64,000 nucleotides of DNA. Source: Cyanobacterium sp. Dongsha4. GTDB lineage: Bacteria > Cyanobacteriota > Cyanobacteriia > Cyanobacteriales > Cyanobacteriaceae. A program made the position numbers and the translations under genes. The notes under the pieces are model-generated. The model was given only the letters and a program-made list of their open reading frames with translations, made no database searches and was not told the origin of the DNA. Shown here piece after piece: positions 45,439 through 59,018 of the stretch (its first letter is position 1; every line of letters starts with the position of its first letter). The DNA lies in contig NZ_CP084098.1 of the NCBI RefSeq assembly GCF_036345015.1, forward strand, positions 496,001 through 560,000, given 5' to 3'.

Positions 45439-48400
45439 TTAGAAGAAACCGGCATTAGAAACTTCTGAGCCATTAAGTAGTGCTAAACTATTTTCCATGA
45501 ACTGATCTAAAAATGTTTGAGCTTCATTCATATTGCCGATATAACCAACTCCCGCTACTTGTTGATTAAAGGCTTGAAAGCGATCGCTCGATGAACTTAA
45601 ACCCTGTCCAAAAGAACCAAAAAGGTTAGCGTTATTAGCCCATTGTGCGTCACTCCACTCTGCGGAAGAAGCAAGAAAACTAACCCGAGTGCGATCGTCC
45701 ACATTAAAACGAATAATCGCATCATCATAATCTAAATCTCCTCCACCGAGGATGTCTTCAAAGCCCCAAGTGTTATAACCTAGATTAGTAACGTGGTCAA
45801 AATTATCCACATTGGCGTCTTTATAAGCAAAGAAAACATTTTCAAACTCTATTGCTGAACCATTAACCGCCATAAAGGGTGCAAATAATTCATCGCCACT
45901 GAGGTTAAAGCTAAAGGGTACTGTTTCTAAATCTGCTAGGCTAAGATTGGCATTAGTGTCCGTTAGACGATTAAACTCGCTGAGAGCTATGGTTTGGTAT
46001 TCAGGGTTATCTGGGCTGTAGGTATTACCATCAGAGTCAATGACTGTACCATTTTCATCTAGGACACGGTAAAATCCAACGGTATTGTTAAAGGCCGCTT
46101 CACGGAAAATTGAACCAGAGATGGTATATTCAATTTCACTAGAATTGTTCTGGGTGTCAACAAGATCAATATTCGGATTTGGGTCAGTAATAGGGATGGT
46201 ATTATTTTCTGGTTGGAAACTGGTATAGTCAGTTATCGTTGATTGCAAAATCGCTAGGGGTAATTGAGATTTGCTTAAACCATCATCTACCGCCTGATTC
46301 CATCTTTGAATTTCCTGAGAAGAAGGATTGCGAGAGTAAAGAGTTTCACTGGTGACATTAACTATGGCTTCTACGGATGAGTCTTCAAGGGTTGCCCCAA
46401 AGTGGTTAATAATTTCTGCTTGACTTTCAGGAGAACTGATAAAGCTATCAACAAAATCATCAACGTTATCAAAATCTGGCATTTTCGCAGACCAATTGGC
46501 ACTACCAGTGGGATCACTTAATCTTCCGAAATAGGTTTGATATAGTAAACGGGTGAGGTTATATCTGTCCATGGTATTATCAGGAATGTTATTATCCCCA
46601 ATACCTTCTAAATCAAATACTCCTACTTGACCAATAGTTGTAATATTTAGGTTGAGTTGCTGAGTATTCTCTAGTAAATTTGAACCGCTAGAAGGTGTAC
46701 CGTTTACTTCATTACCTGTGGCAAAGAGGATTTGTGGAGCTTGATTTTCTGGGGCTAATCCAGAGGTAAGATCGAAACTTTGTACTAATAAACCACCATT
46801 ACCTAATGCACCGCCAAAAATCGGGGTAACGCTATGACCTAGACCTTCAGGCACATTGAGAATACTGAGGTCAACTAGATTAAAGATACTGGGATTAAGA
46901 TTAGTAACAATATCTTCTGTTCCCATATCCATACCCATATCCATATTATGACCACTATGACCTCCGTGGCCAATGGTGCTACCGTCAGAAGTGGCGATAA
47001 AGTGTCCTGCCCCTAATTGGAAGGTGTAAACGCCCGTTTCTGTAGGAGAATTAGCAGTTAAAATCAGATTTTCTAGGGCTATTTGTGCATACTGATTAAA
47101 GCCACTGGTAAGGGTAATTTCTGAGGCTTGGGCAAGGGTTTCATTTTCAATTAAAGCATCAGCTAATAAGGCTTGATCTGGCTGGTATCCACCAGTAAAT
47201 TGTCCTGTTTGTAATAAAAGTGCGATCGCAGCTCCATCTAAAATACTTAAATGAACTCCATTAGTGGTGCGATAGGCAATAGCTAAATCGGCAAAATTAT
47301 CTAAATTGTAATCTCCTGTACTTATAGTAACCTGCTCAGGACGTAAACCCGCAACAGGATCAAGATTATCCCCTTCAATGTCGATGAAGTCCCAAGGATC
47401 AAATTCAAAAATTTCTGTCCAATCTTCTCCCTGAGAATCGGTACTCCAACCTGTCACTGCAAACTCAGTTAAGTTTACAGAACCATCATTATTAATTTGT
47501 TTAAAACCTGCGGTAGTTATATCATTGCGGTTATCTCCACTCAAATCAGAAATTACCGCCCAAGGTGCTAAATTACTATTTTCATAGGGTTTAAAACTGC
47601 TGAGTAAGTTAGTTTGGTTTGTCAATAAACTAGCACCATCATAGACTCGGACTAAACCATCTCCTTCGGTGGTAATTACGACTTCTTGGACAAAATCACT
47701 ACTAACATCTCCTGTTTGTCCTCTTCTAGGAGTTATATCAAGATTGCCATTAAGGCTTAAAGTATAAGGTTTAAAATCTGAAGCTCGATAAACTGTGACA
47801 TTAATATTATTATCATCGCTGCGATCGAAATTAAAATGTTCCGCAGGAATTAACCAACTATCATCAGTATTTTCAATCACTTGAATTGCCATCATCATCC
47901 CCGCATCTTCATGGGGCAGAATATGACAGTGGAAAACATAAGTTCCTAAAAAGTCTTGGAATAACATTCGAATAGTTTGATTATTTGCTCCCCAAGTTGC
48001 TAAAGGAAGAGTATTGTTAGGGTCGATCGCCTCTGGTAAAGTGGTAAAAGTACCCTGTAAAGGATCTTTTTGTAAAACCTCTCCAGAACTAGCATCATAG
48101 TAGTGATAGCCAGAACTATTGAGCATTGTCACATCTTCAAGGTTACGTTTTTCGGGCAACTCAGTATCACTATCCAACACTTGATAATCATTGATATGGA
48201 TATGAAAAGGATGCCCAATATACTTACTAGGTGCGTTGATACTCCAATTTTTAAGAGTCCATTCTTCGATCGTACCTAACTGAGCTGTAACCAAAGGACC
48301 AAAAGGAAAAACATGATCATTAATCAGAAAAGGATTTTCATAACCTAACCATGTACCTTCCTCATCCCTTGGCAAAGCAGTAAAAGTTTGATATTCTTGT

Positions 48401-50307
48401 CCCGTTGACTCTTGATAGGCTTTCAAAGCCTCTTGAGTTGCCGCATCTCTCTCTGTGGGATCTCGTCCTACTAATACATCTTTTGTCCAGTTAAACTCCC
48501 TTCCCCGTGTAGGTTGCCACTGCTCATCAAATAAATTTACACTAGGTACTTTATTGGGATCATACTCTTCTGGAGTTGTTGTTGGTAAAATCTCTTGTAC
48601 ATCAATATTAGTATTAATCTGATTGATAAAATCTTGCTGTTGAGCAGGGCTTAAATCTTCTGTACCTTCAGGCACTGTCAAAATCGCCAAAGGACCCGCT
48701 CCCTGAGAATTTTCTGAGCTTAATTCAGGATAACCTCCCATATTAGTTACATTGTAGGTTAAACCATCTTTTTCAAAAGAGTAAACCGAGGTTAATTCCG
48801 TCGTGCCACTTTCAAGATAAAATAAAACATCTACTCTTTTCCCCGGTGGCAGGGAAATAATATCTTCTCCTTTTGTATAGTCTGTCGGCGCGGAAGCCCC
48901 TTGAGGAGTATATGAACCTAAAACTCCTTCCGCTCGGCGAATCTCAGGGTATTGATGACCGTCTTCTCCATAAATGAATAAGGGTATGGGTTCTAAGGTT
49001 GTATTGCCATCATTATCTGTAACTCGTTGTTGCAAACTGACATTATAATAGGCTTGATTACTTTGATTGCTTAAAGAGATACTTTGCCACCCTCCCACGG
49101 TTTCCCGATTCGGTTGAAATTCTCCATTCACCGTCACCATAGTTAAACGGTTAACTAAACCCCCTAGATTATCATAGGAAGTTAACCTTAAACTGGGGTC
49201 TTCTTCTCCTTCCGTTTCGTCTGCGCCAAAATCAAGATCAATATTTTTGAGAACCGCTAAATTGCGAGGTATATCTTCTAAGCTAGGAATGCGACTGAGG
49301 GGATCTCCAATTTGAATAAACCCCGATTGCCCCCCATAAACTTGAGCGTTAACAGAAGGGTGATAATGGGGATGATACCAATAAGAACCGATACCATGAT
49401 CATCAGGAATATTAATGTCTGTTGTCCAACTTTGTCCTGTGGTATAACGACTTACGACATTATCAGAAAATCCCCCCGGAGCGGTATGGGCACCATGAAA
49501 ATGGAAATTAGTTGACGTTGTTCCTCCTAACCCTGCACTGCCACCATTACCATAAGAACTATTACGCACTAAAGTCGCCGCTTGAATTTGTTCGGTAGTT
49601 AATCCGGGAATAGTGATTTCATTATCAAAATTAATGCGTAAATCTTCCCCCGGTTGCATGATTAATGTGGGGCCTGGGTAGCTAGTGGTTATGGTATCTC
49701 CATTGGGAAGACCATAGGTATATAAAAAATTTGGCAACCAGAGAGGGGGGGTTTCTCCTTGGGCAACATCTAAATTATCTAAAAGATTTTGAGCATCAAA
49801 AATAGAGCGGACTATTTCACTGTCATTGTATATGTCCCATTTAGCAGAAGGATCATAATTGCTATTATCTTGAATTGCTGTATAAAGTTCATCCGTAGTT
49901 TGTCCTTGGGCTGACCAAAATTCATCGGTATTTGCACCTTGATCAAATCCGGGTCCTGTGTAGCCAATAAGTCTTAAGTTATAGATAGAATTATTCCGAG
50001 ATTTTCCTGTCCAGTTTCTGACGATCGCATTTTTGTATTGAGTAAACAGAGAATTAGGACTATTAACAGCAGTTAAACCATTTGCTCCTAATAAAAATTC
50101 ATTAACAAATTGATCTACATTAATAATCTGTACGGGGTTACTGGTAATATCGAGATCAACTTCTAAGTCTTGACGAGGTTGATTATTATTTTGAATAATG
50201 CCTGTTTCAGGATCATAACTAAGACTAGAACTTAAAACAATGTTGGGATTACCTTCGGGAGTTGTAGGGAATATAGCACCGAGGCGATAGAAAAAAGAAT
50301 CTGACAT
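45439..50307 (-). CDS. Giant multicopper oxidase with VCBS-like, DUF4214 and DUF4114 regions
   Basis: About 1,622 residues from the ATG at 50307. Residues up to about 815 form a multicopper oxidase with all copper motifs: NFHFHGAH (about 267-274), WYHPHYH (310-316), HPFHIH (699-704) and HCHILPHEDAGMM (793-805). So the type 1 Cys-His-Met and trinuclear sites are complete. After it comes a region with FG-GAP/VCBS-like Asp-rich loops (ISDLSGDNRNDITTAG). A His/Met-rich stretch, HGGHSGHNMDMGMDMG, follows. Then a DUF4214 domain (MDRYNLTRLLYQTYFGR, about 1255-1380) and a DUF4114-like C-terminus (YNTWGFEDILGGGDLDYDD, about 1390-1560). No signal peptide is seen; DUF4114/DUF4214 proteins are often exported by type I systems. 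The substrate (Cu, Mn, Fe or phenols) is not readable from sequence. Confidence 0.85.
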   Translation of the reverse strand: MSDSFFYRLGAIFPTTPEGNPNIVLSSSLSYDPETGIIQNNNQPRQDLEVDLDITSNPVQIINVDQFVNEFLLGANGLTAVNSPNSLFTQYKNAIVRNWTGKSRNNSIYNLRLIGYTGPGFDQGANTDEFWSAQGQTTDELYTAIQDNSNYDPSAKWDIYNDSEIVRSIFDAQNLLDNLDVAQGETPPLWLPNFLYTYGLPNGDTITTSYPGPTLIMQPGEDLRINFDNEITIPGLTTEQIQAATLVRNSSYGNGGSAGLGGTTSTNFHFHGAHTAPGGFSDNVVSRYTTGQSWTTDINIPDDHGIGSYWYHPHYHPSVNAQVYGGQSGFIQIGDPLSRIPSLEDIPRNLAVLKNIDLDFGADETEGEEDPSLRLTSYDNLGGLVNRLTMVTVNGEFQPNRETVGGWQSISLSNQSNQAYYNVSLQQRVTDNDGNTTLEPIPLFIYGEDGHQYPEIRRAEGVLGSYTPQGASAPTDYTKGEDIISLPPGKRVDVLFYLESGTTELTSVYSFEKDGLTYNVTNMGGYPELSSENSQGAGPLAILTVPEGTEDLSPAQQQDFINQINTNIDVQEILPTTTPEEYDPNKVPSVNLFDEQWQPTRGREFNWTKDVLVGRDPTERDAATQEALKAYQESTGQEYQTFTALPRDEEGTWLGYENPFLINDHVFPFGPLVTAQLGTIEEWTLKNWSINAPSKYIGHPFHIHINDYQVLDSDTELPEKRNLEDVTMLNSSGYHYYDASSGEVLQKDPLQGTFTTLPEAIDPNNTLPLATWGANNQTIRMLFQDFLGTYVFHCHILPHEDAGMMMAIQVIENTDDSWLIPAEHFNFDRSDDNNINVTVYRASDFKPYTLSLNGNLDITPRRGQTGDVSSDFVQEVVITTEGDGLVRVYDGASLLTNQTNLLSSFKPYENSNLAPWAVISDLSGDNRNDITTAGFKQINNDGSVNLTEFAVTGWSTDSQGEDWTEIFEFDPWDFIDIEGDNLDPVAGLRPEQVTISTGDYNLDNFADLAIAYRTTNGVHLSILDGAAIALLLQTGQFTGGYQPDQALLADALIENETLAQASEITLTSGFNQYAQIALENLILTANSPTETGVYTFQLGAGHFIATSDGSTIGHGGHSGHNMDMGMDMGTEDIVTNLNPSIFNLVDLSILNVPEGLGHSVTPIFGGALGNGGLLVQSFDLTSGLAPENQAPQILFATGNEVNGTPSSGSNLLENTQQLNLNITTIGQVGVFDLEGIGDNNIPDNTMDRYNLTRLLYQTYFGRLSDPTGSANWSAKMPDFDNVDDFVDSFISSPESQAEIINHFGATLEDSSVEAIVNVTSETLYSRNPSSQEIQRWNQAVDDGLSKSQLPLAILQSTITDYTSFQPENNTIPITDPNPNIDLVDTQNNSSEIEYTISGSIFREAAFNNTVGFYRVLDENGTVIDSDGNTYSPDNPEYQTIALSEFNRLTDTNANLSLADLETVPFSFNLSGDELFAPFMAVNGSAIEFENVFFAYKDANVDNFDHVTNLGYNTWGFEDILGGGDLDYDDAIIRFNVDDRTRVSFLASSAEWSDAQWANNANLFGSFGQGLSSSSDRFQAFNQQVAGVGYIGNMNEAQTFLDQFMENSLALLNGSEVSNAGFF

Positions 50308-50780
50308 GATCAACTATCCATTGAGATCGGTAAATTTAAAATACTTAAAATTTTAATGATTTTTTGCCTAAAAAAGACCTGTTGTCTTAAAAATTTTATT
50401 TTTTCTTTACAAAATGTCAATTTTAGATATTTATCTTCAATATGACTCAAAAAGATAGATACTTTAAAAGTAAAAACTAGATTAATAGTTAGGGCAAGAA
50501 AATAACTAAATTGTCTTCTGATAAATCATTAATGATTTCACTTAACAATTTTTTAATTATTTTTACTGGTTTTATAGACTTGATCAGAATCATAAATTAA
50601 TAATATTTACTCAGTTTACTTAACGGTTTTTTCTTAGTAACTATTGACGGCAATTTATTTTTATTTTTCAACAATAATTGTATATTTTTGTTACAGTTAT
50701 TAATATTTATTGCATCTGTTACTGGTAATTAATGCTATTTTGTATGGTTGAATGGAATTAATAGCAAGGAGATAGAGTTA
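50308..50780. other. Divergent gap between the multicopper oxidase and DUF692 genes
   Basis: About 470 AT-rich bases. I looked for a small Cys-rich precursor peptide, which many DUF692 enzymes modify, and found none on either strand. Promoters for both genes are expected here, but no pair stands out. Confidence 0.4.
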
Positions 50781-51608
50781 GTGGGTTTCGGTTTAAATGC
50801 TCGTTCGGCGGGTCTAAATCTGTGCCATGAAAATGCTGATGAATTCGTGGCAACTATGCCTTCTGTGGATTTTGTTCAAGTGCATCCAGAGCATTTTCTA
50901 CAGGATTTGGGAGGTAATTATGTTCATGCTTTTGAGAAATTAAAAGAAAATTATCCTCTTACCTTTCATGGTTTTGGTTTATCTTTAGGTTCGATCGCAC
51001 CTTTGCCAGAAAATTATCTAAAATTGGTTAAACGCTTACTAGCAGAAAATGAAGGAAGTTTTTTTTCAGAACATTTTTCATGGAGTTCCGTTTCTCATCA
51101 CCATTTCCATGATTTAATACCCTTTCCTTTTACCCAAGAAGTTTTAGACTATTTTTGCGAAAGAGTTGAACAGGTGCAAGAATATCTCGGTAGTGAGATT
51201 TTATTAGAAAATATTAGTAGTTATATGCGTTTTAGCATTTCTGAAATGGACGAAATAGCCTTTATGAATGAAGTGTTTAAACGTACTGGAGCAAAAATGT
51301 TATTGGATCTTAACAATCTATGGGCTAACGCTCAAAACTTTGAAGAAGATGCCTTAGAGAGAATGATGGCAATTAAGCCTGAATATGTACAAAGTTATCA
51401 TTTAGCAGGGTGTACAGCTTGGGGAGATAATAATTATATTGACTATCATGGAGAAGCTGTTAGAGAGGAAGTATGGCAACTATATCAGAAAGCGATGGAA
51501 GTATTCGGAGCTAAACCGACTTTAATTGAATGGGAAAATAATATTCCTCCCATTAGCCGAACAGTGGAAGAAGTCCATAAAGCTAAAGCTATTTTAGTAA
51601 AGGCCTAG
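50781..51608 (+). CDS. DUF692 (MNIO) family enzyme
   Basis: DUF692 proteins are TIM-barrel multinuclear non-heme iron oxidases; studied ones (MbnB, TglH, ChrH, bufferin enzymes) modify Cys residues in peptides. The GTG at 50781 has AAGGAG nine bases upstream and gives the family-like start GFGLNARSAGL; the frame upstream to TTG 50748 lacks such a site. Metal-ligand regions are visible: VQVHPEHFLQDLGG, FHGFGLSLGS, FSEHFSWSS with HHHFHDLIPFPF, ENISSYMRF, LDLNNLWANA, YHLAGC and EWENNIPP. Length is 275 residues. No partner DUF2063 protein or precursor lies beside it. It is divergent from the multicopper oxidase. Confidence 0.85.
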   Translation: MGFGLNARSAGLNLCHENADEFVATMPSVDFVQVHPEHFLQDLGGNYVHAFEKLKENYPLTFHGFGLSLGSIAPLPENYLKLVKRLLAENEGSFFSEHFSWSSVSHHHFHDLIPFPFTQEVLDYFCERVEQVQEYLGSEILLENISSYMRFSISEMDEIAFMNEVFKRTGAKMLLDLNNLWANAQNFEEDALERMMAIKPEYVQSYHLAGCTAWGDNNYIDYHGEAVREEVWQLYQKAMEVFGAKPTLIEWENNIPPISRTVEEVHKAKAILVKA

Positions 51609-51871
51609 AGTTCAACTCAAGCTCAATTTGTGCCAATAATCGCCGATGAGGACAGGTTTCAGATATGACAATACGGCTAGTAAATTAGTTAAGAGGAGGA
51701 GAAAGGGGGATGTGGGGAGAGGAGAAAGCCAGTCATAAGTTCAGAGTTTTTAATTCTTAATTTTTAATTCTTCATTTTTTCTTTGCCCTACCATAACCAG
51801 AAAAATTTATCTTGAACTCAGATTAGTTTACTTTTTCGAGAAGATTGGAATTTCTAATTTTTGAAAATAAT

Positions 51872-52195
51872 ATGATACATCCTCAATTAGAAGAAATAAT
51901 TAGTAAGTTAAAACAGTCTTTTATTAACTTATATAATACTAAATTAGACAAAATTATTTTATATGGATCTCAAGCGAGAAAAGATGCTCAAATAGATTCA
52001 GATATTGATATTTTAGTAGTTCTTAAAGACAACATTGATCCTTATAAAGAAATAGATAGAACTGGAGATATTATCTATCAAATAAGTTTAGATTATGATG
52101 TGGTTTTATCTCGTCATTTTATCTCTTCTGATAAATTTAATTATAGTAATAATCCATTTTTACACAATGTAAAAAAAGAGGGAATTATATTGTGA
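51872..52195 (+). CDS. mntA: MNT-type nucleotidyltransferase antitoxin
   Basis: A minimal nucleotidyltransferase of 107 residues with the active-site pattern GSQARKDAQIDSDIDILVV (GSX10DXD). Such MntA proteins neutralise the partner HEPN RNase by adding AMP to it. I use the ATG at 51872; TTG 51845 also opens the frame. The stop overlaps the HEPN GTG by four bases, the usual translational coupling. The partner gene is split by an insertion element, so the antitoxin now probably stands without a working toxin. Confidence 0.85.
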   Translation: MIHPQLEEIISKLKQSFINLYNTKLDKIILYGSQARKDAQIDSDIDILVVLKDNIDPYKEIDRTGDIIYQISLDYDVVLSRHFISSDKFNYSNNPFLHNVKKEGIIL

Positions 52196-52294
52196 AATTA
52201 GAAGTTGATAAATTAATTAAAAAGGCTAGAGAGAGTTTAGTTGCTTCAGAAATTTTAGCTCAAAATGAACTGTATAATTTTGCAGGATCGAGGG
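52192..52294 (+). pseudogene. HEPN toxin gene, 5' part, cut by IS607 insertion
   Basis: It starts at GTG 52192, overlapping mntA. It reads KLEVDKLIKKARESLVASEI, then AQNELYNFAGSR, the first helix pair of a HEPN domain. The frame then enters the insertion element and becomes meaningless. Joined to 54190-54467 it makes 381 bases, exactly 127 codons including the stop. Confidence 0.85.
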
Positions 52295-52337
52295 TAGATA
52301 ACAGTTTGTTGTTATTTAGTAAAATCTATGCTAATCT

Positions 52338-52976
52338 ATGTATATGGAAAAAAGATTAGTTAAGATAGGAGAAGCGGCTAAAATACTAGGAACAACCCCA
52401 GACACTCTAAGAAAGTGGGAAGCCACAGGAGAAATAGTGCCGACTAGAAAAACTAAAGGCGGTACTAGATATTACGATGTTGCTGAACTGATGAATTTAG
52501 ATTCTGGAGATTATCCCACAATAGGGTATGCTCGTGTTTCTAGTCACGACCAAAAAGAAGATTTAGTAAGACAACAAGCAATGTTGGAAGCCTATTGTTC
52601 AGCTAAAGGTTGGAGAACTGAAATAATTAAAGACTTAGGCTCAGGCATGAATTATCACAAGAAAGGATTGCTTTTGTTGCTTGAAAAAATACTAAAGAAG
52701 CAAATGAAACGTCTCGTTATTACTCATAAAGATAGGTTGCTTCGTTTTGGTTCTGAATTAGTGTTCACATTGTGTGAATTGCAAGGAATCGAGATTGTAA
52801 TTATTCATAAAGGAGATCAACCGACTTTTGAAGAAGAATTAGCACAAGACGTTTTGGAAATAATTACTGTTTTCAGTGCTAGACTTTATGGTTCAAGAAG
52901 TCGTAAGCATAGAAAACTAATGTCAGCATTAACCGAAGAAGGAGACAAATTATTTGAACAAGTACAGAAAAAATGA
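52338..52976 (+). CDS. tnpA: IS607 transposase, serine recombinase TnpA
   Basis: A 212-residue recombinase with an N-terminal MerR-like helix-turn-helix (KIGEAAKILGTTPDTLRKWE, then GGTRYYDV). The small serine-resolvase catalytic domain has GYARVSSHDQKEDLVRQ (nucleophile Ser in ARVSS), HKDRLLRFG (Arg) and ELAQDVLEIITVFSARLYGSR. It is complete and looks active. It overlaps tnpB by four bases (ATGA), so the two are translationally coupled. A second ATG lies two codons in. Confidence 0.93.
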   Translation: MYMEKRLVKIGEAAKILGTTPDTLRKWEATGEIVPTRKTKGGTRYYDVAELMNLDSGDYPTIGYARVSSHDQKEDLVRQQAMLEAYCSAKGWRTEIIKDLGSGMNYHKKGLLLLLEKILKKQMKRLVITHKDRLLRFGSELVFTLCELQGIEIVIIHKGDQPTFEEELAQDVLEIITVFSARLYGSRSRKHRKLMSALTEEGDKLFEQVQKK

Positions 52977-54079
52977 TTAGTTTCAAAACGGAATTAAAAC
53001 TGAATAATAAGCAACGAACAATTATGGCAAAACACGCAGGAGTTGCACGTCATGCTTATAATTGGGGATTAGCTATTTGCAAGGAAATACTTGATTATAA
53101 TCAAGCAAACCCTGAAAATAAACAAAAATTTCCCAGTGCTATTGATTTACATAAACGATTAGTAGCAGAAGTAAAAAGTCAAAATCAATGGTATTATGAA
53201 GTATCAAAATGTAGCCCTCAACAGGCTCTTAGAGACTTAAGAATTGCTTGGGATAGATCTTTTAACAAAATAGCTAAACCACCTCGATTTAAAAAGAAAA
53301 ATAACAGAGATAGTTTCTATCTCGAAGGTAATATCCAAATCAAAGGAAACAAAATTAAATTACCTAGAATTGGTTGGGTTAAAACTTATGAAAAATTTAT
53401 TCCTTCAATTTTAGTAAAAAAATCAGGGAGTAATTGTGTAATTTCTAAACGGGCTAATAGATGGTTTATTTCTTACAAAGTAGATTATGAGCCAGAAAAA
53501 ATAGAACATCCTTTTGGTAGAGTCGGTTGTGATATTGGCATAAAAAAACTAGCTACATTGAGTAATGGGTTAGTATTTCCCAATGTTAAAGCCTATAGAA
53601 CTGTCAAGAAAAAGTTAGCACATTTACAAAGAGAATTAAGTAGGAAAGTAAAGGGTTCTACTAACTATAAAAGAGCATCGGTAAAATTGGCAAAACTCCA
53701 TTATCGGATTAGTTGTATTCGGAAAGATGCCATTCACAAATTAACTCATTACCTCACTAAAAACCACAGTGAGGTAGTGATTGAAGATTTGAATGTGTCT
53801 GGAATGCTACAAAATCACCGATTAGCCAGTGCCATAGCAGACTGTGGATTTTATGAATTTAGAAGACAATTAGAGTATAAATGTGACTGGTATGGGGCAA
53901 TTTTACACATCGTAGATAGATGTTTTCCATCTTCTAAAACTTGTTCTAATTGCAATGAAATTAAATCAGATTTAAAGCTAAAAGATAGAACCTTTAATTG
54001 CTCTTACTGTGGACTAATTATTGATAGAGACTTAAATGCTTCAATTAATTTGGAAAATGCGGTAAGCTCTACCGTGTAA
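52973..54079 (+). CDS. tnpB: RNA-guided nuclease TnpB of IS607
   Basis: TnpB is an RNA-guided DNA nuclease and the ancestor of Cas12. The 368-residue protein is full length, with a helical N-terminal and wedge region, RuvC-I GCDIGIKKLATLSNG (Asp187), RuvC-II VVIEDLNVSGM (Glu271) and RuvC-III DRDLNASINL (Asp353). The zinc finger is C324SNC327 and C343SYC346. All catalytic residues are present. The guide RNA would be cut from the 3' end of this transcript and extend into the flank to the right of the element. Confidence 0.95.
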   Translation: MISFKTELKLNNKQRTIMAKHAGVARHAYNWGLAICKEILDYNQANPENKQKFPSAIDLHKRLVAEVKSQNQWYYEVSKCSPQQALRDLRIAWDRSFNKIAKPPRFKKKNNRDSFYLEGNIQIKGNKIKLPRIGWVKTYEKFIPSILVKKSGSNCVISKRANRWFISYKVDYEPEKIEHPFGRVGCDIGIKKLATLSNGLVFPNVKAYRTVKKKLAHLQRELSRKVKGSTNYKRASVKLAKLHYRISCIRKDAIHKLTHYLTKNHSEVVIEDLNVSGMLQNHRLASAIADCGFYEFRRQLEYKCDWYGAILHIVDRCFPSSKTCSNCNEIKSDLKLKDRTFNCSYCGLIIDRDLNASINLENAVSSTV

Positions 54080-54210
54080 GTCTGTGGAGTGTCAGACAAA
54101 CTAATAATTTAGATTATTAGGACACGGTGAAGCAGAAAATTGACAGATAATCTTAGATTTTCTTGATTATCATAAGTTCTTTAGAGCGGCTTACTATACT
54201 ATGTTTTATA
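54040..54210 (+). ncRNA. Candidate omega-RNA (reRNA) at the right end of the IS607 element
   Basis: After the tnpB stop come three perfect hairpins: GTCTG/CAGAC at 54080-54097, CTAATAA/TTATTAG at 54101-54120, and GATAATC/GATTATC at 54146-54171. The right element end follows at 54189. This arrangement fits an omega-RNA scaffold. The guide would be the bases right after the end, from 54190 (CTTACTATACTATG...), that is, the HEPN gene. Exact ends are inferred. Confidence 0.55.
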
Positions 54211-54467
54211 TAGCGGAGGCTTTTTTATGGACGCAAGGAATGAGTTTTTCTAGTCATTCTGCGGTTATTTCGGCTTTTGGTAAAGAATTTGTCAAAAAAG
54301 GTCTTGTTCCCATCGAATTTCATCGTTTTTTAATCAATGCTCAAGATAAAAGGACTCAGGGAGATTACAGTATAGACGATGAAAAACAGTTAAGTTTTGA
54401 GGATGTCAGTATTTTAATAGAACAAAGTAAGCTATTTATTAAATGGGCTGAAAAAACAATTATTTAA
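54190..54467 (+). pseudogene. HEPN toxin gene, 3' part, cut off by IS607 insertion
   Basis: It reads (A)[39 protein letters not shown] and [16 protein letters not shown], typical of the C-terminal helices of MNT-partnered HEPN proteins. It is in frame with the 5' part at 52192-52294 once the element is removed. An ATG at 54201 could give an 88-residue fragment, which would lack the first helices. Confidence 0.85.
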
Positions 54468-54543: not shown

Positions 54544-56049
54544 ATGACAAAAATAGAGACATGGGAAGATACAGGGCAAGGTTATCCTCTGCGTTGGTGG
54601 GTTTTGCCGATTGTTTGTTTACCAACTCTGGCGATGTTACTAGATGGAAATATTGTCTTTATTGCCTTACCTGCCATTGGTGACACTTTCCGTTATTTTC
54701 CCAATTTGGGGGAATGGGTGTTAGCTTCTTTTTCCTTAGTGGCGGCGGCTCTTTCCTTACCTGCGGGGGAATTGGGCGATCGCATCGGCTTAAGAAGGGT
54801 ATTTAGCTGGGGTTTATGGTTATTTATCCTCGGTAGTGGTATTTGTTTTTTTGCTTTTAAAGGCTGGATATTAATTTTGGGGAGGGTGATATGTGCTTGT
54901 GGGGCGGCAATTCTTGCCCCTGTTGCCTTGGCTTGTTTACGGCGTATTTTTCCTCCAGAAGAACAGGCGATCGCCTTTGGTTATTGGTCTGCTAGTGTCA
55001 CCATTGGTACAGTGATTGGACCATTTTTAGGAGGATTTTTAGAACATATTGCTAGTTGGCATTGGGTCTTTTTTGCCCCTGTAGTACCTGCTGCGATCGG
55101 ACTTTTAGGACTGCCTTTATTGCCTTTGCTTCCTGCGAAACAAATTTCCTCCAAACCTGATTATATGGGCATAACTACCATCGGCTTTGCTATCTTTTTC
55201 TTTCTCTTTTTCCTGATGGAAAGTCCAAATTTATCCCCCAGTCTTAACATTTTGATTATCTGTCTTTTCTTGCTAACAGTAGTAATGTGGCGACAAAGTG
55301 CGAATAAATCATCGGCGGTTATTCCTTTAAATATTATTACTCGTAATAGTTGGTATGTTCCTTCTGTTTTACAACTATTTATTCGAGCATTGTTTGTATT
55401 TGTAATGACTTGTTTAACGGTTTATTTTCAAGAAGGGAGAAGTTTATCCGCTTTAGACACATCTATTCATATTTTGCCTTTAAGTATCGTGTCGGGGGTT
55501 GTTTCTCTTGCCAGTGGCTATTTAGAAAAATCTTTCGGAGTCAAATATTTAATGATGGCAACTCTTACTTTAACCGCTCTAGGTTTTTGGTCTTTGCGAG
55601 ATATTCCCCTATCTGGATTTGATGGGGGTGACTGGTTTGGTATGGTAGCTTTTGGCATCCTTTATGGTAACACTGCCCAACTTTCTCACCAAGCCTTAGT
55701 TCATTTTCCTAAATCCCAAGCCATGAGAGGTTCTGCCATTAATACCTTAACTATTAACTTAGGTTTAGCTTTAGGGGCGGCTATTTACAGTATTTTTATC
55801 TCAATTGCCTTACCATTGAATTTAAAACAGCAGTCTAATTGGCAATTTCCCGTTGAGATACCTAGCAGTGTTCAAGAAATACTCAATCAGGTAGATCAAA
55901 ATCTTCATACCTCAACTCATAGTCAATCATTACAGGCTTTACAAGAATCTTTAGCCCATAGTTTTGGCTTTGGTTTTACATTGTGTGCTATTTTTTGTGT
56001 AATCGCCATTGTCATTACCTACAGTATGCGACCATTTTCATCGAATTAA
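54544..56049 (+). CDS. MFS transporter, DHA2 (14-span) type
   Basis: A 501-residue major facilitator protein of the drug:H+ antiporter-2 kind. About 14 hydrophobic spans are seen. The typical motif region LPAGELGDRIGLRRVF lies between spans 2 and 3, and the antiporter-type motif VTIGTVIGPFLGGFL in span 5. It exports or imports a small organic molecule; the substrate cannot be told. The next gene, a ThDP-dependent decarboxylase, starts 34 bases later on the same strand. The two are therefore likely co-transcribed, and the transporter may move that enzyme's substrate or product. Confidence 0.87.
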   Translation: MTKIETWEDTGQGYPLRWWVLPIVCLPTLAMLLDGNIVFIALPAIGDTFRYFPNLGEWVLASFSLVAAALSLPAGELGDRIGLRRVFSWGLWLFILGSGICFFAFKGWILILGRVICACGAAILAPVALACLRRIFPPEEQAIAFGYWSASVTIGTVIGPFLGGFLEHIASWHWVFFAPVVPAAIGLLGLPLLPLLPAKQISSKPDYMGITTIGFAIFFFLFFLMESPNLSPSLNILIICLFLLTVVMWRQSANKSSAVIPLNIITRNSWYVPSVLQLFIRALFVFVMTCLTVYFQEGRSLSALDTSIHILPLSIVSGVVSLASGYLEKSFGVKYLMMATLTLTALGFWSLRDIPLSGFDGGDWFGMVAFGILYGNTAQLSHQALVHFPKSQAMRGSAINTLTINLGLALGAAIYSIFISIALPLNLKQQSNWQFPVEIPSSVQEILNQVDQNLHTSTHSQSLQALQESLAHSFGFGFTLCAIFCVIAIVITYSMRPFSSN

Positions 56050-56082
56050 CTATTCACTATTCTTATTCACTAATTGTTATTA

Positions 56083-57804
56083 ATGATTAAAAACAATCCT
56101 ACCACTGCTGAATATGCAGTACAACGTCTGGCTGATTTAGGAATTCGCCATGTTTTTGGTTTACCAGGAGATTATGCTTTTCCTATCGATGATGCGATCG
56201 AATCTAACCCTAATTTAACATGGGTTGTCTGTAGTAATGAACTTAATGCCGCCTATAGTGCCGATGGTTATGCCCGTGTTTTTGGTGCGTCTATCCTCAG
56301 TACTACCTATGGAGTGGGAGAATTAGGTGCAATGGCTGGTGTCATGGGAGCTAAAGCAGAAAGATTACCTATTTTTCATCTGGTAGGGATGCCTTCCACT
56401 AGGTTAATGCGGACTCGTAAACCCTTACATCATACCTTCGGAGATGGAGAATTTGACCATTTTCATCAATTATCCTCCGCCACCGCCTGTGTTAGCACTA
56501 TCTTAACCCCAGAAAATGCCATTACCGAAATGGAAAGAGTAATTGCGATCGCACTTTCCCAACGGCAACCAGCAATTATCGCCATAGCTGGGGATTACGC
56601 TCAAATGCCTGTGATAGGCAATCCCATACAGGGAGTACCATTACATCAAGTTTCACCCCCAAAAAGTAACCCTCAAGAGTTAGAGTGTGCCGTTAAAACT
56701 ATCTTACAAAGATTAGAACAAGCCCAACAACCCGTTATTCTTCCCTGTTTTACTCTACTACGTTACGGATTAACAAAACAATTCACCCACCTTCTCAAGA
56801 TTACTGGTATTCCCTACGCTACCACCAGAATTGATAAAGCCGTAATTTCCGAATCTCATCCCTTATATATGGGTATGTATCGAGGGGCAACTTCAGAATC
56901 CGCCCTCCGAGAATATGTAGAATCTGCGGACTTAATTCTTGACATCGGCGGAGTCTTATTTGATGATGTTTCTACAGGTCATGGTTCAGCAAGACTCGAT
57001 CGAGAAAAGATTATTTCCATTCATCCCCATCATGTAGAAATTCTCTCTAACATTAGTCATATTAATTCTCAATCCCACACTTATAGCCCTGTTTGGATAG
57101 AAGATGTCATTAGTAACCTTATAGAGAATATTAAACCCATTTCCCTCAAAAAATTTCCCCAACCTTCCCCCATTACCCTCGAAAAAAGTTCTTCCCAAGC
57201 TATTACTTGGCAAACCCTCCGAGCCACAATGCAAAATTTCCTAGAAGCAGAAGATATTTTAATCTGTGAATCTGGTTTAAGCGTTGCTTTCTTATCATCC
57301 TTACTGTTACCAAAAAACTGTAGCTTTCATAATCAAACCCTTTGGGCGGCTATTGGTTGGGCAACTCCTGCCACATTTGGGGCGGCTTTAGCAAATCCCC
57401 AACGGCGAGTTATCTTAGTTACAGGCGATGGTGCTCATCAACTTACGGCAAATGAAATTGGCACTATGGGGCGTTATGGAGTTAAACCCATAATTATTGT
57501 CTTAAATAATGGCATTTTTGGTATTGAAGAGTTTTTAGCAGGAAATAAATCCAATATTTACAATGTTTTATCTCCTTGGAATTATGCTCAGATACCTCAT
57601 GCAATGGGTTGCGAAAACTGGTATTGTCAAAAAGTTACATCTTTAGATGAATTAAACAACGCCCTTGAAAAAGCAAGACTCCACAATAATGGGGCTTATA
57701 TAGAAGTTGTTTTAACCGAGAAAATTCCTCCTGCTTTATCTGAAACAATATACGCTCAACGCTATCAATTATCACCTATAAACACTTACCTGAGTCCCCT
57801 CTAA
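56083..57804 (+). CDS. ThDP-dependent 2-keto-acid decarboxylase (pyruvate/indolepyruvate decarboxylase-like)
   Basis: 573 residues from the ATG at 56083. The N-terminal PYR domain has the cofactor-activating Glu in SNELNAAYSADGYAR and the His-His pair PLHHTFGDGEFDHF that marks pyruvate- and indolepyruvate-decarboxylase-type enzymes. The middle domain is unremarkable. The C-terminal PP domain has GDGAHQLTANE and LNNGIFGIEEF, the GDG...NN thiamine-diphosphate motif. It would convert a 2-keto acid to an aldehyde plus CO2. Pyruvate, phenylpyruvate or indolepyruvate could be the substrate; sequence alone does not decide. It lies between an MFS gene and an acetolactate-decarboxylase-like gene. Confidence 0.85.
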   Translation: MIKNNPTTAEYAVQRLADLGIRHVFGLPGDYAFPIDDAIESNPNLTWVVCSNELNAAYSADGYARVFGASILSTTYGVGELGAMAGVMGAKAERLPIFHLVGMPSTRLMRTRKPLHHTFGDGEFDHFHQLSSATACVSTILTPENAITEMERVIAIALSQRQPAIIAIAGDYAQMPVIGNPIQGVPLHQVSPPKSNPQELECAVKTILQRLEQAQQPVILPCFTLLRYGLTKQFTHLLKITGIPYATTRIDKAVISESHPLYMGMYRGATSESALREYVESADLILDIGGVLFDDVSTGHGSARLDREKIISIHPHHVEILSNISHINSQSHTYSPVWIEDVISNLIENIKPISLKKFPQPSPITLEKSSSQAITWQTLRATMQNFLEAEDILICESGLSVAFLSSLLLPKNCSFHNQTLWAAIGWATPATFGAALANPQRRVILVTGDGAHQLTANEIGTMGRYGVKPIIIVLNNGIFGIEEFLAGNKSNIYNVLSPWNYAQIPHAMGCENWYCQKVTSLDELNNALEKARLHNNGAYIEVVLTEKIPPALSETIYAQRYQLSPINTYLSPL

Positions 57805-57911
57805 AATTGTAGCTTAAGGTAAGCAACGGGCAATAGGCAACAAGCAACAGTACATTTAAGTACATTTAATTAAGATAATATCTGAGTATAAAAAACGACA
57901 AAGGAGAGATA

Positions 57912-59018
57912 ATGGCAAAATTATTTGTAGCAAATACAATTACAGATTTAATTTTGGGTGATATAGATGAACATTTACCCATAAATCGCATCCCTTTATC
58001 GGGAACTGTTTTAGGTTTAGGTACTACTACCGCAACAGATAACGGTGAATTAGTTTTTCTTCCTAATTTTGAGCAAAATAAAACTTCCATCTACAAATGT
58101 AACCCCACTGATGGTAAAACTTATTCTTTATCCCCAACTTCAGAAGTAGATCATTTTCCTTATGTTTGCTTCACAAATGACATTGACGAAGAAGGTATAG
58201 AAATCGATGTTTCTAACTTTAATATTACTAATTCTAGTCTGACGGAAATTATCACTCAATCAATTAACCAATGCGGTGTCAAAGCTAGTTATTATGGTGT
58301 ATATATCAAGTCAATATGGTCATCGGTTGTTTTAACCATTGCATCTAAGTTATGTTTGTGGCAGTGGGCAAGAATGAAGAATTTTGTCTCTGATGAGATT
58401 TTTAGTGCAGAAGATAATATCTACACATCATTACAGCATTTTTACTGTGCTGATCAAGAACAGACTGATAACCCAATGAAATACTTGGGTAAAGCAAATT
58501 CATGGCAATTAATTGGAATGTATGCCAGTGAACCAAAAACAGGCTTAGTTACAGTACCACAACCTAACCAAAATTTACATATACATGGTATTTGTACAGA
58601 AAAAAATTGGGGTGGCCACGTACACCATGAACATAAGATGAGCAAATTACTCCGTATTGATAGTTTAATTATCTATCCCCTTCAAGAAGTTGAAGTAATT
58701 GAATCGGATTTAACGATTAAGGATGCTGTATGGCTTGATGATAACCTTGTTTTTACTGTTGTTAACCAAGGATTATTAGATGTGAGTAATCTTCAAATTC
58801 ACATAGTTCCTAATAATCAATATAGCTCATACATTGGTTGTCGCATTCCTTGGTTAAGTGCTGGTAATTCTTTTCAATTCAATATTCCTAAAGACCAGAT
58901 TAAACTGAAAACAGGAAAAAACCTTATAAATATTATTGCAGACCCAGACAATTTGATTTTAGAAGCTAATGAAAATAACAATATATTGACTCTTGAGGTT
59001 TCTATTTCCCCTGTTTAA
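57912..59018 (+). CDS. Acetolactate-decarboxylase-like protein with C-terminal CARDB domain
   Basis: 368 residues. The C-terminal 100 (SDLTIKDAVWLDDNLVFTVV, then PDNLILEANENNN) are a CARDB-type Ig-like domain. The first 255 residues have an order like alpha-acetolactate decarboxylase: LSGTVLGLGT, then GVKASYYGVYIKSIW, NSWQLIGMYASEP, and NLHIHGICTEKNWGGHV. HxH...GGHV mirrors the zinc His ligands of AlsD. There is no signal peptide. Similarity is distant and judged by motif order only, so the reaction is unproven. AGGAGAG lies seven bases before the ATG. It follows the ThDP enzyme gene by 107 bases. Confidence 0.55.
   Translation: MAKLFVANTITDLILGDIDEHLPINRIPLSGTVLGLGTTTATDNGELVFLPNFEQNKTSIYKCNPTDGKTYSLSPTSEVDHFPYVCFTNDIDEEGIEIDVSNFNITNSSLTEIITQSINQCGVKASYYGVYIKSIWSSVVLTIASKLCLWQWARMKNFVSDEIFSAEDNIYTSLQHFYCADQEQTDNPMKYLGKANSWQLIGMYASEPKTGLVTVPQPNQNLHIHGICTEKNWGGHVHHEHKMSKLLRIDSLIIYPLQEVEVIESDLTIKDAVWLDDNLVFTVVNQGLLDVSNLQIHIVPNNQYSSYIGCRIPWLSAGNSFQFNIPKDQIKLKTGKNLINIIADPDNLILEANENNNILTLEVSISPV

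Follow-up and report, generated by a model that had tools for sequence, protein, structure and literature searches.

What joins the three forward-strand genes that follow one another closely in the genome of Cyanobacterium sp. Dongsha4, a transporter of the major facilitator superfamily (MFS), a ThDP enzyme, and a protein that resembles acetolactate decarboxylase (AlsD, also ALDC) and carries a CARDB domain? A sequence-only reading of the 64,000-nucleotide stretch analyzed here (the window) had proposed a pathway, in which the ThDP enzyme makes an acetolactate-like acid, the third protein decarboxylates it, and the transporter moves product or substrate. The analyses described below lead us to lean, with some reserve, toward a different answer, namely that these are three accessory genes lying side by side and not one conserved pathway, the ThDP enzyme being an aldehyde-forming decarboxylase (KDC) and the third protein a divergent member of an AlsD-fold/CARDB family.

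The Locus and Its Surroundings

Open reading frames, Pfam matches, and residue positions bear out the three genes on one strand and the motifs recognized in them (Table 1). The gap of 107 bases between the ThDP enzyme gene and the AlsD-CARDB gene had been counted correctly; the gap between the first two genes is 33 bases instead of 34, or 24 bases with the alternative TTG start, and the MFS gene may be co-transcribed with the KDC gene. The AlsD-CARDB gene has a G+C fraction of 0.329, versus 0.398 and 0.406 for the other two. Scanning for promoters and terminators returned 14 and 3 sites, compared to 19.9 and 4.6 in shuffled sequences, and a search for repeats in the region yielded nothing notable.

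Table 1. Features of the three-gene locus, in window positions
Feature	Position	Strand	Remarks
MFS transporter	54544..56049	+	501 aa
ThDP enzyme (KDC)	56083..57804	+	573 aa from ATG 56083; TTG 56074 possible start
LHHTFGDGEF	56425..56454	+	From residue 115; aligned with indolepyruvate decarboxylase
GDG...NN motif	57424..57510	+	GDG at residue 448, NN at 475-476
Glu482	57526..57528	+	Aligns with Glu in NNEGYTVE of indolepyruvate decarboxylase
AlsD-like/CARDB protein	57912..59018	+	368 aa
AlsD-fold domain	57912..58682	+	About residues 1-257, boundary approximate
Glu46	58047..58049	+	E in 43/43 AlsD-CARDB and 7/7 canonical AlsD rows
Thr142	58335..58337	+	T in 43/43 AlsD-CARDB rows, R in 7/7 canonical rows; hhalign pairs them alike
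H223-x-H225-x10-H236 metal-site motif	58578..58619	+	His in 43/43 AlsD-CARDB and 7/7 canonical rows
CARDB domain	58743..58991	+	Pfam match, residues 278-360

Upstream, in the region 51845-54467, an IS607-type element (resolvase-like gene, 52338-52976; TnpB-like gene, 52973-54079) is flanked by genes for a nucleotidyltransferase (51845-52195) and a HEPN protein (54201-54467), and perhaps splits an MNT-HEPN pair. In the sister species, the nucleotidyltransferase ORF and the MFS gene lie just 94 bases apart, with no HEPN gene between them. Farther upstream, positions 50748-51608 encode an MbnB/TglH/ChrH-type RiPP-modifying enzyme (PF05114, 2.2e-91); an equally long ORF (286 aa) occupies the corresponding site in the sister. 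Positions 45439-50313 encode a multicopper-oxidase-type protein of 1624 aa that matches DUF4114 and, weakly, DUF4214.

The first gene product matches PF07690 (MFS_1) in Pfam at 2.5e-38. Searches place it as a DHA2-type drug-efflux-like MFS transporter; against NCBIfam models of the SmvA/EmrB type it scores 136.8 and 131.6 bits, under the cut-offs of 701 and 230.2. Matches to it at E<=1e-80 occurred in 2 of 291 genomes, Dongsha4 and its sister. The protein may export something related to KDC chemistry.

Assignment of the ThDP Enzyme

Pfam recognizes three TPP-enzyme domains in the product of the middle gene (1.4e-24, 5.3e-24, and 1e-18), and its best PDB relatives are indolepyruvate, 2-oxoisovalerate/branched-chain, and yeast pyruvate decarboxylases. 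TIGR03393 matches at 1e-123 with 413.9 bits, below its equivalog cut-off of 946, and the exact substrate is therefore not assignable from profiles. The acetolactate synthase models TIGR00118 (129.3 bits, cut-off 538.35) and NF006378 (93.3 bits, cut-off 510) also stay below their thresholds. The HHTFGDGEF and GDG..NN motifs seen in the sequence-only reading are present, and together with the Glu of the NN..GIE stretch they complete the hallmarks of pyruvate (PDC), indolepyruvate (IPDC), and other 2-oxo-acid decarboxylases. We take LHHTFGDGEF to be the HH motif of PDC-type decarboxylases, GDG...NN to be the ThDP-binding motif, and the position of Glu482 to be that of the catalytic Glu of indolepyruvate decarboxylase. 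The enzyme thus shares three ThDP domains, HH, GDG..NN, and Glu with known 2-oxo-acid decarboxylases, including the indolepyruvate, pyruvate, and branched-chain enzymes.

By these profile scores (413.9 versus 129.3 bits), the enzyme is a member of the PDC/indolepyruvate decarboxylase/KDC family, not an acetolactate synthase, and its proposed role in making an acetolactate-like acid finds no support. The ordinary products of this family are aldehydes; acyloins can be made by PDC-type enzymes via carboligation. The window KDC would most likely decarboxylate a 2-oxo acid to the corresponding aldehyde. Microcystis MaKDC is described as homologous to indolepyruvate and pyruvate decarboxylases; its expression in E. 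coli led to branched-chain alcohols and phenylethanol, and activity on pyruvate was not detected (PMC4103566). The window KDC is likened to it by family description.

Three other TPP_enzyme_N proteins are encoded in the Dongsha4 genome: a biosynthetic IlvB-type acetolactate synthase, an AlsS-like enzyme, and MenD. KDC matches were also found on 15 plasmid records; of three such regions examined, one has no annotated genes, and in the two with listed neighbors no MFS gene adjoins the KDC gene.

An AlsD-Type Fold Joined to a CARDB Domain

The third protein matches CARDB (PF07705) above the cut-off (9.7e-8; 32.6 bits versus 22.7). AAL_decarboxy (PF03306), with a cut-off of 25, scores 24.1 bits on the whole protein and 26.0 bits when residues 1-258 are taken by themselves, and TIGR01252 scores 23.3 bits, below its cut-off of 180.65. 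A structure model built from 43 sequences reached a pLDDT of 88.0 and a pTM of 0.85, with residues 158-172 poorly modeled. In a Foldseek search with it, rows 1-11 were ALDC or ALDC-like chains (E 7.6e-11 to 2.3e-7), followed by CARDB domains. VIA-align superposed the model on AlsD chains with Z 19.1-20.4 and rmsd 2.8-3.4 A over 205-214 aligned residues at 14-23% identity, on human PTD012 (1xcr) with Z 14.5 and rmsd 4.5 A over 225 residues, and on the CARDB domain of PF1109 with Z 13.8 and rmsd 2.5 A over 103 residues (3idu; model residues 260-368) or Z 13.2 and rmsd 2.0 A over 100 residues (2kl6). The structural comparison with AlsD that the sequence-only reading had named as a check thus recovered the AlsD fold, and the description of the protein as AlsD-like with a CARDB domain stands.

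When 43 members of the family were scanned singly at E<=1, CARDB was found in 42 and AAL_decarboxy in 41; DUF1907 was not among the five families found. DUF1907 was likewise absent from the Pfam matches of the window protein at E<=10, in a search whose filters may drop weak matches. A profile–profile comparison with AlsD by hhalign gave a probability of 50.6 and E 1.6e-4. Because a PDB sequence-profile search with the family alignment (A3) returned AlsD only at E 0.89, the link to AlsD rests on the fold and the profile–profile comparison. The AlsD fold fused to CARDB is a conserved, uncharacterized family; no publication title among the matches listed announced an AlsD-CARDB protein.

Two further structures are informative by comparison. 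In PF1109, the CARDB domain has a similar structure, and in the window protein it sits behind an AlsD-fold domain. Human PTD012/C11orf54, of the DUF1907 family, has a related zinc fold and serves a substrate other than that of AlsD: it is reported, in a commentary, to be a 3-dehydro-L-gulonate decarboxylase (PMC12435205). The commentary does not mention CARDB, and the window protein has no DUF1907 match.

Active-Site Residues

Residues were compared, under each of three MAFFT settings, in a joint alignment of 43 AlsD-CARDB rows, cut at residue 268, and 7 canonical AlsD rows. Glu46, which we take to be the equivalent of the active-site residue Glu65 of B. brevis ALDC, is invariant in both groups, as is the histidine motif. 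Thr142 stands at the position of a conserved active-site Arg of AlsD, which we take to be Arg145, and the C-terminal active-site Glu of AlsD, which we take to be Glu253, has no aligned counterpart in the cut AlsD-CARDB rows (42 gaps and one Pro). The Glu/Arg/C-terminal Glu trio is invariant in 7/7 canonical rows, and the full set is lacking in AlsD-CARDB. The family therefore shares with AlsD (PF03306) the fold, the H-x-H-x10-H motif, and an active-site Glu, whereas it differs in having Thr for Arg, no aligned C-terminal Glu, and an added CARDB domain. The missing C-terminal Glu is judged from the sequence alignment of these cut rows, and the CARDB domain may itself supply such a Glu.

In ALDC, zinc is reported to be bound by three His (PMC10048662). 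In the window protein, a metal is predicted to be bound, most likely via His223, His225, and His236, and Glu46 would most likely act on a small carbonyl acid. Because the Arg is missing, as is the C-terminal Glu according to the alignment, the substrate or the chemistry probably differs from that of AlsD, and the substrate is probably not acetolactate. With Arg replaced by Thr in 43/43 rows and the C-terminal Glu unaligned, a role as decarboxylase of an acetolactate-like acid lacks support.

Distribution and Divergence of the AlsD-CARDB Family

Within the phylum, AlsD-CARDB matches were found in 17 of 386 genomes at E<=0.01. Thirteen are strong (Dongsha4, its sister, one genome of family f37, and ten of family f41, which includes Cyanobium) and four are weak (E 0.002-0.005); among 60 genomes drawn as relatives, only Dongsha4 and its sister carry the gene. 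In a named genome collection, a single-sequence query did not find it, and a query with an 11-row alignment returned 50 loci, mostly from Cyanobium, Synechococcus, and Vulcanococcus. Seven of the 50 come from gammaproteobacterial MAGs, including three that carry the name Haliea or Halioglobus. In the tree, these seven loci (L121, L127, L130, L141, L142, L148, and L159) group as a single supported clade, suggesting that the gene passed once between cyanobacteria and proteobacteria. No match was found in plasmids or phages at E<=0.01 that would point to a mobile or viral origin, and none was confirmed in viral contigs. Some copies look broken: L057 is split in two frames, and L155 and L165 have one and nine in-frame stops, respectively.

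No member of the family has diverged more than the window protein, which has the longest branch in the tree (2.13) and differs at 23 of 110 strongly conserved columns, compared to at most 7 of 112 in any other row.

A review credits Synechococcus of the deep Black Sea with a catabolic acetolactate decarboxylase (PMC8955281), which may belong to either family; one record labeled as from the Black Sea, L124 (Synechococcus sp. BSA11S), contains an AlsD-CARDB gene. In Dongsha4, no PF03306 match was found at E<=0.001, leaving no candidate canonical AlsD; the match of the AlsD-CARDB gene itself is too weak to appear at this threshold.

Conservation of the Gene Neighborhood

Both genomes of the genus covered here have the three genes at one locus. 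In the sister, the MFS and KDC genes are intact and 97-98% identical to those of the window. The AlsD-CARDB frame is recognizable there from about codon 50 onward, and the first ~50 codons, including Glu46, are replaced by unrelated, stop-containing sequence, a difference that may stem from an assembly error. The MFS and KDC genes are thus kept without an intact third gene. Between window and sister, dN/dS is 0.080 for the MFS gene, 0.081 for the KDC gene, and 0.154 for the AlsD-CARDB gene from codon 53. About 5 kb beyond the sister's remnant lies a pyruvate formate-lyase-like gene (L046, 1671-3947); the only such match in Dongsha4 is far from the locus (C1:4122144).

Beyond the genus, the arrangement is not conserved. 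In the flanks fetched for the 50 named AlsD-CARDB loci (up to 8 kb per side, often less; tblastn, E<=1e-8), KDC, window-type MFS, AlsS, and canonical AlsD genes were found at none, and the lack of AlsS is a further contrast with AlsD. Among 12 G-genome loci with the AlsD-CARDB gene, KDC and MFS genes are present only at the sister's, with its truncated copy. KDC matches at E<=1e-90 occur in 41 of 386 genomes, 39 of them outside the genus, and none of the 11 loci examined from these 39 has AlsD-CARDB nearby; seven f41 genomes with both genes carry them on different contigs or ~290 kb to 1.1 Mb apart. The conserved linkage that a pathway had led the sequence-only reading to expect is therefore not found, and a conserved three-gene operon was rejected.

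The fetched flanks contain gyrA in 22 and crtL (lycopene cyclase) in 23 of the 50 loci, and LD-carboxypeptidase in 7. Many picocyanobacterial loci have either gyrA/lycopene cyclase/GH57 or LD-carboxypeptidase/class I aldolase as neighbors, and the few others are varied. Gene context was rejected as a clue to the AlsD-CARDB substrate, since the neighbors have no common theme.

Co-occurrence was assessed for three gene pairs in the 161 genomes of family f41, with p values uncorrected for relatedness or genome size. AlsD-CARDB is present in 26 and KDC in 14 of them, and 6 genomes have the two together (expected 2.3; Fisher p 0.012). Canonical AlsD, in 27 genomes, occurs with KDC in 5 (expected 2.3, p 0.062) and with AlsD-CARDB in 3 (expected 4.4, p 0.57), in one of these only as a fragment. 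In two genomes of one f41 genus, canonical AlsS-AlsD lie beside a KDC relative (L061, 4631-9539; L168, 4074-8754), possibly as a fermentation cluster, which indicates that a KDC can sit with acetoin genes. In L102 and L168, the MFS protein also has weak, partial-length matches (29-31%) several kb away.

Discussion

The co-occurrence of KDC and AlsD-CARDB in six genomes where 2.3 are expected, a comparison that ignores kinship and genome size, is the best evidence for the pathway in which the KDC makes a 2-hydroxy-2-acyl acid or acyloin precursor, the AlsD-like protein decarboxylates it, and the MFS protein exports the product. The shared strand, the short gaps, and the carboligation known from PDC-type enzymes fit this scheme as well. 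We nevertheless regard it as highly improbable: none of the 50 named loci shows the linkage, the sister keeps MFS and KDC with the third gene's 5′ end lost, and the KDC family forms aldehydes. Of the interpretation offered in the sequence-only reading, the AlsD fold, the metal-site His with one Glu, and the CARDB domain hold, and the synthase role, the conserved linkage, and a full AlsD site find no support. Alternatively, the third protein could be a functional acetolactate decarboxylase, producing acetoin from the acetolactate made by IlvB and leaving the KDC without a role. Its fold, its three His and one Glu, the biosynthetic acetolactate synthase and the AlsS-like ThDP enzyme of the genome (L170, L171), and the missing canonical AlsD would agree with this, but the Thr in place of Arg throughout the family and the unaligned C-terminal Glu make it unlikely, and the three of 161 f41 genomes that hold both kinds, one as a fragment, indicate that AlsD-CARDB is not simply a replacement for AlsD.

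The long branch, the many changed conserved columns, and the sister copy without its 5′ end raise the further question of whether the window copy is degenerating or non-catalytic. We consider this still less likely, as the frame is intact, Glu46, the three His, and the invariant columns of the family alignment are kept, and dN/dS over the part shared with the sister is 0.154. Because relatives elsewhere do not keep the three genes together, a shared pathway is unlikely, and we return to the reading of three adjacent accessory genes, which would have been acquired independently. The AlsD-CARDB protein would then be a divergent member of its family with a chemistry or substrate probably unlike that of AlsD. 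A more specific proposal, to which we give slightly less than an even chance, is that AlsD-CARDB proteins constitute a separate enzyme class of picocyanobacteria and some Gammaproteobacteria, with a Thr-for-Arg site and a substrate other than acetolactate, which they decarboxylate or otherwise transform.

These proteins have the AlsD fold without the full AlsD active site. Annotation by similarity may call them acetolactate decarboxylases, and picocyanobacteria may thereby be credited with acetoin fermentation. In human metabolism, the reported assignment of C11orf54 filled a 65-year-old gap (PMC12435205). Given this precedent, a conserved, uncharacterized branch in aquatic phototrophs, present in 26 of 161 genomes of one family, is a tractable target.
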